From Anadara kagoshimensis (lineage: Eukaryota; Mollusca; Bivalvia; Arcoida; Arcidae), in assembly GCA_021292105.1 (NCBI GenBank), contig CM037874.1:28589083-28653082 (forward strand): a stretch of 64,000 bases of DNA, read 5' to 3'. Below are positions 21,901 through 24,900 of this stretch, one piece after another; the first letter of the stretch is position 1, and the number at the start of each line of letters is the position of its first letter. A model generated the notes under the pieces. It saw nothing but the letters and a program-made list of their open reading frames with translations. It did no database searches and was not told the origin of the DNA. The position numbers and the translations under genes are program-made.

Positions 21901-24900
21901 TACTAAATATATACAATTTTTTGTTATTCTATCTACAAAATAAACACTAACACAAAGAAAGCATGCAAACAGGTGAAGGATCTGAAGATAAAATTACAAA
22001 ACAGGAAGTAGTCTTGTGTACGTGTACCCTGTACCACAAAGGGAGACAACTGGACTAACTTGTCAATAACTCCACAAACTCAAATACCCATTTTGAAATC
22101 TACTTATTACAATTCAATTTTTTGTTTTGTGTACTGAATATTATGATATAAAATTATTAAATATAGATGATAAATTGGAAAACAATACTCATGTTGATAA
22201 CGAGTCCAGAAATATCCCCTAGTAGTACAGGTCGTCATAGCAACAAATAGACACCATGCTCTGGCACTATTACTAGCAAGACCTGTATACTTTTACATCA
22301 AAATAGCGCTTGCAATAATTGCATAAAAAAGATACGTATCTCTACATATAAAGTATATATCATAACACTATGGCAATTGTTGTTGCCCACTATGACATTC
22401 AGTGTTGCCCTTTGTGATTCAGGGTTAGTACGTATGTATATATGTATGATTATCAAGGCATAACAAAATCATACATGTGTACAAAATGAACTAAAAACAC
22501 TTCCTGAATTGCTGTACTCCAGCTTCCTTACCTGTTTAATGCATTAAGCATTTCTATGACAACCAAAACAGATAGTGCCATGGTCATGGGATGAGGACTT
22601 TCGAATATCTCGCAGTCAATCCCTGCAAAACGCTCATCCTGAGCTAAACATTGAGCATGGTGGGTCTAGGTAGAGGAAGAAGACAAACAAACAATAAATA
22701 ACAGATTAGATTAAAGACAGGATACAAGAGATTACAATAAAACTGTGTATAGTGAGAAATGTATTGACAACATCAGTGGGTTTGAGGAAAAACCGTGTCA
22801 GGAAGGAGACTGATGTTACTATACATTTCTTATTATACAAGTTAGAAAAGGTTGGAAAAATGTAACTTTACTTTAGAACATTTTCTTTTGCACCTGCAAT
22901 TTCTATTTCACATATTTTTTTTTTTTTTTTTTTTAAATTCCATTCTCAAGATCATTATAAATGTTGACTGTCGATAAATATTACTAAATGACAATTTATT
23001 TCAAGAGCAATGTAACACAGTACCAAACAAAATTTTGAAAATCAGAAATTGCTACTAGGATCTACCAAAAAGAATCAAAACTAGTTGAAAAATTTCAAAA
23101 GTTATTCTTAATCTGAATGCATATTTGTACAAGAAGTTAATTTAAATCAGCAGAAAATATCTGAGTTAAAGTTACATCATTCCATATAATATCCCAATAC
23201 CAACTGATTAAGCTAGGAATAAATAACTGATCGACCAGTGTTATAGTCAACAGTATGCAATACCTTCCAAATACCAGATACTTCAAATTGTGCCAATAAA
23301 ATTTTCCATCTAATTTTTCAGAGTTGTTCAATCTAAATTGATTTAAACCCCAGTCGAGATTTTTCAACTTTTATTGGGACGATTAGTTTTGAGAGAGAAG
23401 CTTACTTCAATATCATTTTCAATGAGTCTCTGAATTTGGAAGATTTCAGTCATACCATAGTTAACTATATACATGTGTATACGTAAATTGGATTGTATAT
23501 TACCTGTTAAGAGCATTTAACATTTCTATAGTTACAAGTACAGACAATGCCATTGTCATTGGATGTGGGTCATTAAATATACCACAATCAATTCCTGGGA
23601 ACATTTTAGGCTCAGCTGGGCACTGCATATGATGTGTCTGCAATAAGATGGTGTTTTGCTGAAGTTTGCATTCATAGGCCTTAACAAGTAGTAAATTTGA
23701 GTTCCTTCAACTCAAATTTTAAACAAACAATGAAACTACAATAATTCTTGGTGCATATCACTTCTATTCCGACTCCATGTTATCCAAAAGTACAAATTTT
23801 GAAGTAATTTAAAAATGGTCCGAAATATTAATGACTTGAGTTACCAACAGTTCACAAGAAAATGATGTCCAAATTTGTGAAATTCTACTGTATTTCATAA
23901 AATCAATATTTCAATACCTTTTGAAAAATAGTCAATACTCTATAAAACACACATTAACTTATATCCTCTTAAATCAGGTCACCATTAAATTTTTATATTA
24001 AATTTACTGTTTCAATTTTATAATAGAATAAAATATATTTTAACTTCTTTATTGAATTGCAATTTTAGCTATTATATTGTGGTTATCAGCTTTTATTAAT
24101 CTGCTGTTTAAGGCACTAAGCTGGACTTGTAGCAAAACAAGTGTAAGTTAAACCTTATAATTCACTATTTATAATTTATACTTTTTATCATTTGAGTGAT
24201 CAAACACAAACATGCCTAACCATGTCAAAATCACAATCCCAAAAGCAAAGTAGAATCTTTGAAACTGACAAATTAAGACAAACACATGTTCTACCACCAG
24301 AGAACTGAGGCCGGGTAGTCCGAAACGGTAAGCACCTCCAGTATAGTCATGTACTCCCGCCACATGTAGAATGAAAATTGAGAATAAAACACTTAACTTT
24401 CCTTCCATTTACATCTTTAAAATTTATTTATGGTAAAATATGCAAATATTATGTAATTGTATTAATATGACAAATATTCAATTTGCCATTTTTTAAGTAA
24501 CAAAACACCTTACCAACTGGTAATAATTCAGTTTAGGTCCTTGGTCGTAGATCATGAACCACCAGGCGGCGGAACCAACAGTAGCACAACCAACATACAC
24601 TGTAATAAAGATGACAAAACTGTAGTTATGTGATACCATTAATAGAAATTTTTTACCTAAGTGTTCATTCTAAAAAAGGGGCTTTGGGACCATTGATCCC
24701 TTTTCTGCCAAATGACCTTGTTCTTAAGGCCTTAAATGTCTTTTTAAAAAATACCCCATTTAAAATGCCCAAGTGGCTTGAAAAATGTTTTGGATAGGCA
24801 AGATCTATACCATGAAAACTTGAAAACTATTACTGGTTCTAGTTTAAATTTCTTTTAAATGTGGTTTTATATTTAAATACACTTACAACCAATGGCCATA

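Follow-up and report, generated by a model that had tools for sequence, protein, structure and literature searches.

The window, by which we mean the whole 64,000-nucleotide stretch of Anadara kagoshimensis DNA analysed here (contig CM037874.1, 28589083-28653082), carries on its minus strand most of one gene for SERCA, the main pump that fills the Ca2+ store of the cell, and two neighbouring exons of this gene, 20a and 20b, are probably a tandem-duplicated, mutually exclusive pair that gives pumps with different lumenal faces. In the spliced model, the exons of which were aligned to SERCA one by one, the protein has 1021 residues and each transcript has 26 coding exons. The window holds model exons 5-26 (18755..59132, minus strand, as for all features of this gene given below), and the first four coding exons are located past its right end. 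Among the proteins compared, the closest to the model was the Pinctada fucata pump (90.0% over 994 residues).

The pair lies where the preliminary description had placed it. From the upstream constant exon (24514..24599), which ends in ...LNYYQL and has the donor GTAAGG, the gene runs through exon 20a (23504..23637; a-type, model exon 24; donor GTAATA), an intron calculated from the exon borders to be 838 nt (22666..23503), and exon 20b (22532..22665; the b-type alternative; donor GTAAGG) to the downstream constant exon (19879..19996), which starts with SLSENQS. A simple repeat with long CA and CT runs occupies 19800-19850, a few bases past the donor of this downstream exon. As had been claimed, both exons are 134 nt in length, share the same phase, and encode 44 residues, 33 of which are identical; 87 of the 134 nucleotides agree, which corresponds to a DNA likeness of 65%. 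All four splice sites are intact, with AG before and GT after each exon. The two exons are adjacent, homologous, and equal in length and phase, the properties by which a mutually exclusive pair is recognized.

When exon 20a was used as a query in a six-frame search of the 1.115-Gb genome, 20b was retrieved at an E value of 4.5e-15, and at E values up to 10 neither exon had a match in the genome outside the pair and the corresponding pair of a second gene copy, so that a chance match can be dismissed. A third copy of the exon was found neither in the window, nor in its extension, nor in the genome by translated searches. Both exons belong to the SERCA family by their matches to SERCA1 and SERCA2 in the PDB, which span residues 1-44 (2-44 for 20b against SERCA2); they correspond to SERCA1 residues 871-914, and the loop cysteines and the M8 Ca2+ ligand Glu are present in each. 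With the borders of loop and helix placed from SERCA numbering, ten of the eleven residue changes fall in the lumenal loop part and one falls in M8, in agreement with the initial proposal, in which Cys876, Cys888, Thr906, and Glu908 are rabbit SERCA1 numbers equivalent to 877, 889, 907, and 909 in Anadara. The comparison of synonymous and non-synonymous changes that had been suggested was performed: 30 of the 44 codons differ, and 19 of the 33 codons for unchanged residues have changed synonymously, which we count as constraint at the protein level. The NG86 method gave a dN of 0.24, with dS saturated and not computable.

Models containing just one of the two exons, whether 20a or 20b, end at the same stop codon. 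The earlier argument that the inclusion or omission of both exons breaks the frame was borne out in the spliced model, in which both exons together lead to a stop at codon 923, 230 nt upstream of the last coding junction, and the lack of both leads to a stop at codon 874, 109 nt upstream of that junction. A full pump is thus obtained only when the exons are used one at a time. Stops placed in this manner would invite decay by the usual vertebrate rule, and transcripts with both exons or neither are probably destroyed by nonsense-mediated decay. The prediction that 20a and 20b are used in a mutually exclusive manner is strongly supported by this frame logic taken together with the proteins of other animals described below.

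The pyrimidine content of the tract at the 20a acceptor is the lowest among the acceptors of the gene (0.50), that at the 20b acceptor is the joint highest (0.85), and the donor of 20b also looks better than that of 20a. With its stronger sites, 20b would be expected to prevail except where it is repressed or 20a is assisted, and this suggests a regulated choice. The intron between the exons appears to be too long for simple steric exclusion. Regarding RNA docking structures, no convincing selector pair was noted among the 25 longest of the 50 inverted repeats in 19997-24513; these 25 were mostly A/T-rich. RBFOX-like control was considered for the three TGCATG motifs on the strand of the gene in the intron after 20b (21123, 21757, and 21962) and is not claimed, the motif showing no excess in the window (42 against 36.4 expected, with 22 of 100 shuffles as high).

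In the mechanism that we propose, the splicing machinery would take either 20a or 20b, and transcripts with both or neither would be out of frame, end ahead of the last membrane helices, and decay. With either choice, the pump would be full-length and would retain both loop cysteines as well as the site-I Ca2+ ligand Glu908, while its lumenal face is altered. The two pumps may differ in how lumenal Ca2+, and perhaps redox or chaperone partners, sets their rate; cell types may choose between a and b, and the choice of loop may be combined with that of the C-terminal tail. A wider reading, which we advance tentatively and regard as possible rather than likely, is that the response of SERCA to lumenal Ca2+ (or redox) is toggled, independently of the tail, by a splice switch dating back to the spiralian ancestor, so that a single gene would supply pumps whose set points vary by cell in molluscs, annelids, and flatworms, in comparison with the three genes of vertebrates.

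For the exchanged loop, PMC11826342 reports that the M7-M8 loop mediates the regulation of SERCA2a by lumenal Ca2+ and names five acidic residues in the SERCA2 loop (E877, D878, D881, E883, and D886). According to the same paper, the triple mutant E877L/D878L/E883L showed reduced transport, particularly at intermediate ER Ca2+, transport was abolished when the 875-887 disulfide was broken, and a report cited there describes the disulfide of SERCA2b as inhibitory. In the Anadara protein, the residues aligned with these five acids are 879, 880, 883, 885, and 888, and those that differ between a and b are 880, 883, and 885, aligned with SERCA2 D878, D881, and E883. Acids occupy two of the five places in 20a (E880 and D888) and one in 20b (D888), which has further acids at 881 and 882; residues 880-882 read E-P-K in 20a and Q-D-E in 20b, with the acidic residue shifted by one position.

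Residues 880 and 881 separate the two types cleanly or nearly so among the spiralian rows compared (22 a and 22 b), both columns having been used for sorting. Columns that were not used for sorting are also divided, residue 907 (below) among them: Met875 is found in 22/22 a rows and 2/22 b rows, and residue 878 is Pro in 18/22 a rows and Leu in 20/22 b rows, against Leu in 4/22 a rows. The shift in net charge from -2 to -4 that had been described is real for exon residues 1-28 in Anadara and does not extend to species pairs in general; over these residues, b was more negative in three of seven pairs, equal in three, and less negative in one, and the mean net charge was -1.50 for the 22 a rows and -1.86 for the 22 b rows. 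With only 3/7 pairs more negative in b, we rejected the charge shift as a general rule and as a conserved logic; because net charge is inconsistent, the placement of charge is the better candidate. The proposed replacement of Thr906 (Anadara 907) by Val holds in a loose form: the residue is Val or Leu in 22/22 b rows and Thr in 0/22, and Thr is found in only 16/22 a rows. A change in lumenal sensing by the exon swap is plausible and is tied to the role published for this loop (PMC11826342).

The SERCA2a system described in PMC11826342 shares the same loop and cysteine pair; the acids there were altered by mutation, whereas Anadara would have two natural versions through splicing. If two versions of the loop, each shaped by natural selection, have been kept since the common ancestor of molluscs and flatworms, they represent a ready-made experiment on the role of the loop, which in vertebrates has been addressed only lately, in SERCA2a and by means of artificial mutants (PMC11826342).

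The occurrence of the two exon types in other animals was examined using residues 845-955 of the a and b forms as queries, for which the best 120 of 2,370 and of 2,213 matches were taken, and a nemertean b exon as a third query (53 matches). The resulting 170 SERCA proteins, with 175 exon segments, represent the nearest relatives of the two forms rather than a random sample, and most of the proteins compared are gene models. With the b motif defined as Q followed by D or E at exon positions 9 and 10, 54 of the 175 segments among the matches listed carried it, and all 33 of these that had an organism name, again among the matches listed, were from molluscs, annelids, a nemertean, or flatworms. 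The b-type taxa include bivalves, gastropods, cephalopods, and a chiton, the annelids Lumbricus and Helobdella, the nemertean Tubulanus, and flatworms, all of which we take to be placed in Spiralia (the lineage of Tubulanus was looked up). Among the other 21 b-motif segments, P0138 has arthropods as its nearest named relatives, which indicates that the motif can arise by convergence. Since the protein database was clustered at 90% identity, which can hide a and b forms together, species with a single form are uninformative.

The search for the pair in other animals that had been suggested gave evidence of both exons in one gene for molluscs and flatworms. Among database gene models of relatives, isoforms that differ solely by the exon were found in Littorina (P0016/P0048; 14/44 exon residues differ and 0/972 elsewhere, without gaps) and Octopus (P0042/P0044; 9/44 in the exon and 0/841 elsewhere, without gaps, both models being short at 885 residues). 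In Mytilus coruscus (P0012/P0038), 11/44 residues differ in the exon and 0/806 aligned elsewhere, with 36 gapped columns, and in Mya (P0009/P0051), 15/44 differ in the exon and 7/889 elsewhere, six of them in the tail, with 104 gapped columns. In Helobdella robusta (P0076/P0141), the a and b types are on different contigs and 136/878 residues apart outside the exon, and Macrostomum P0093/P0133 differ at 58/956 positions outside the exon; these two pairs therefore represent separate genes or diverged copies. In the leech, the gene may possibly have been duplicated and the two exons divided between the copies. Most annelid-type b proteins have a best a partner that is only about 86-89% identical upstream of the exon, and a tandem arrangement in annelids is thus no more than possible.

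Three further gene models, Batillaria P0004, Echinococcus multilocularis P0025, and Macrostomum P0029, contain an a copy cut after 34-36 residues that is followed by a full b copy. One mollusc and two flatworms thus have both exons within a single gene, in the order a then b, as in the window. Such fusions are as expected when a predictor is forced onto two tandem exons with a frame-breaking joint length. Both types in full within one protein were found in 0 of the 170 among the matches listed. The sturgeon (Acipenser) models P0003 and P0005, which repeat one vertebrate type with neighbouring sequence and are marked UNVERIFIED_CONTAM, were set aside. The hits P0170 and P0171 from the nematode Aphelenchoides were without the b motif. 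In a hand-picked set of 54 proteins with at least 950 residues and a longest contig under 7 kb, each holds exactly one copy (39 non-b and 15 b-type, including P0138); these short contigs are probably transcripts because an intron-rich gene would not fit on them.

Concerning the origin of the pair, a tree of 54 exon rows (29 mollusc, 10 flatworm, 5 annelid, and 10 outgroup), which was selected after a wider tree and leaves out the nemertean, brachiopod, bryozoan, Trichobilharzia, P0138, and further arthropod rows, placed all 22 b rows in one group with a support of 91/79 and in 90% of 200 bootstrap trees. The wider tree, with 69 rows, united gastropod, chiton, flatworm, and nemertean b rows at 98/96 and left bivalve b rows outside; this tree had three changes of type, with some a rows of Octopus, Helobdella, and Trichobilharzia among b and P0138 among a, and a single b clade was not rejected (p-AU 0.496). 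The grouping of b exons across phyla favours one old spiralian duplication, and a single origin early in Spiralia is most likely as the simplest reading, which 44 columns cannot prove. We consider it unlikely that a and b instead stem from separate duplications in different phyla and owe their likeness to convergent selection on the loop. The AU test applied to the 54-row tree rejected a one-phylum origin in none of Mollusca (p 0.077), flatworms (0.537), and annelids (0.417), and the Q-[DE] motif has appeared at least once in a protein that looks arthropod, both of which are in accordance with that history; however, it is at odds with the 98/96 group, with the cost of 21.85 log units incurred in the 54-row tree when a and b of Mollusca are forced together, and with the a-then-b order common to the mollusc and flatworm models. 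In Mollusca, the two types are conserved to a similar degree, a and b having mean identities of 37.2 and 35.8 of 44 residues, and the mean between types is 31.1. Outgroup exons are nearer a (mean 32.0/44) than b (28.4/44), and the a-type exon consequently looks ancestral.

In the genome of Anadara itself, a second, inverted SERCA neighbourhood is located 2 Mb away on the same contig (26513834-26570965, plus strand) and is collinear with the first over the 94 kb compared; its large pieces are mostly about 91-99% identical, with indels and unmatched gaps, and it could have arisen by recent duplication or be a second haplotype that was retained. Such a doubling might raise the suspicion that the tandem pair is itself a misassembly or two haplotypes placed side by side; however, each gene copy holds both exons in the same order, with start-to-start spacings of 972 nt in the window copy and 968 nt in the second, the 65% DNA likeness of 20a and 20b is too low for alleles, and both forms exist in other species, which leaves this artefact with a negligible probability. 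The coding sequences of the copies, compared using the exon borders that preceded the correction for an AT-AC intron, show 26 differences (25 mismatches and 1 gap) in 3,052 aligned bases, and 20a and 20b each show 0/134. That one of these exons is dead or unused in Anadara is very improbable: the weak acceptor of 20a would fit, but the frame and splice sites of both exons are intact, neither differs by a nucleotide between the gene copies, the changes that separate the exons are mostly synonymous, and the proteins of other molluscs include both forms. It is also quite unlikely that the exclusive splicing is real and serves mainly to set the amount of SERCA through deliberately decayed transcripts, with both proteins working alike. 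Both wrong products do stop early, at the distances from the last coding junction given above, but this role would not need two loops that are kept apart in several phyla, as the Met875 and Leu878 split indicates they have been. We therefore retain mutually exclusive exons for different lumenal faces as the preferred reading.

The second gene copy has a base missing from its last coding exon, which accounts for the single gap; this may be an assembly error or the mark of a broken copy, and the second copy is possibly misassembled or broken on this account. Satellite-like tandem arrays with steps of about 145 and 47 bp occupy 62113-63851, and 90530-91404 of the extended region, and appeared as multiple matches between the two gene neighbourhoods.

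The preliminary description also held that known SERCA isoforms differ at the C-terminus, which agrees with PMC6987452 and PMC3527596. These sources list C-terminal splice isoforms for vertebrate SERCA1a/b, 2a/b, and 3a-f, for Artemia and C. elegans, and for Pinctada fucata (PMC3527596, PMC6987452). Similar to those isoforms, the Anadara pair would provide several pumps from one gene by alternative splicing; they alter the end of the protein, whereas in the pair it is an internal exon, encoding the M7-M8 loop and M8, that is exchanged, and the length and ends stay the same. By inspection, the Anadara gene also has at least one alternative tail. Its last coding exon in the long form (18755..18955) reads through into a hydrophobic tail. 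Splicing from a donor inside this exon, after 18838, to a candidate alternative tail exon (16689..16729) gives ARKFTD-VSGASRYRQRIYP-stop, which resembles the Pinctada tail VSDDKRYSR.... In other molluscs, b forms have three tails in Ostrea (P0031-P0033) and two in Crassostrea virginica (P0034; P0035/P0036, with a common end and different length), and the a and b forms of Littorina (P0016 and P0048) have one common tail; these combinations indicate that the choice of loop does not fix the tail. The vertebrate 2b tail touches the lumenal M7-M8 loop. If our reading is true, SERCA has an internal axis of diversity beside its tail variants, with a possible bearing on molluscan muscle and shell formation.

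Tandem mutually exclusive exons are known from Dscam, Mhc, U2AF1, OGDH, and SNAP25, and they share with the present pair adjacent homologues, equal length and phase, a length that is not a multiple of three, and the use of one exon per transcript, which is predicted for the present pair; unlike in those pairs, the part exchanged here is the lumenal loop of an ion pump (PMC9013439). A description of a mutually exclusive SERCA exon was not found in the titles and abstract openings of the matches listed from the open-licence literature, which counts as weak evidence. Database isoform records exist, such as Ostrea isoforms X3, X6, and X10, and the sequences are already public. An internal, lumen-facing SERCA exon pair kept across phyla is apparently an undescribed switch of an otherwise known kind.

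In this gene, we also noted an AT-AC intron (25794-26324, minus strand) with the donor ATATCCTTT, which is presumably of the U12 type judging from the U12 consensus. Taken by itself, the U12-type donor motif is no less frequent in the window than chance would predict (2 occurrences, 1.76 expected). The intron has CCTTAAC near its end and lies between ...KTASE and MVLADD of SERCA.
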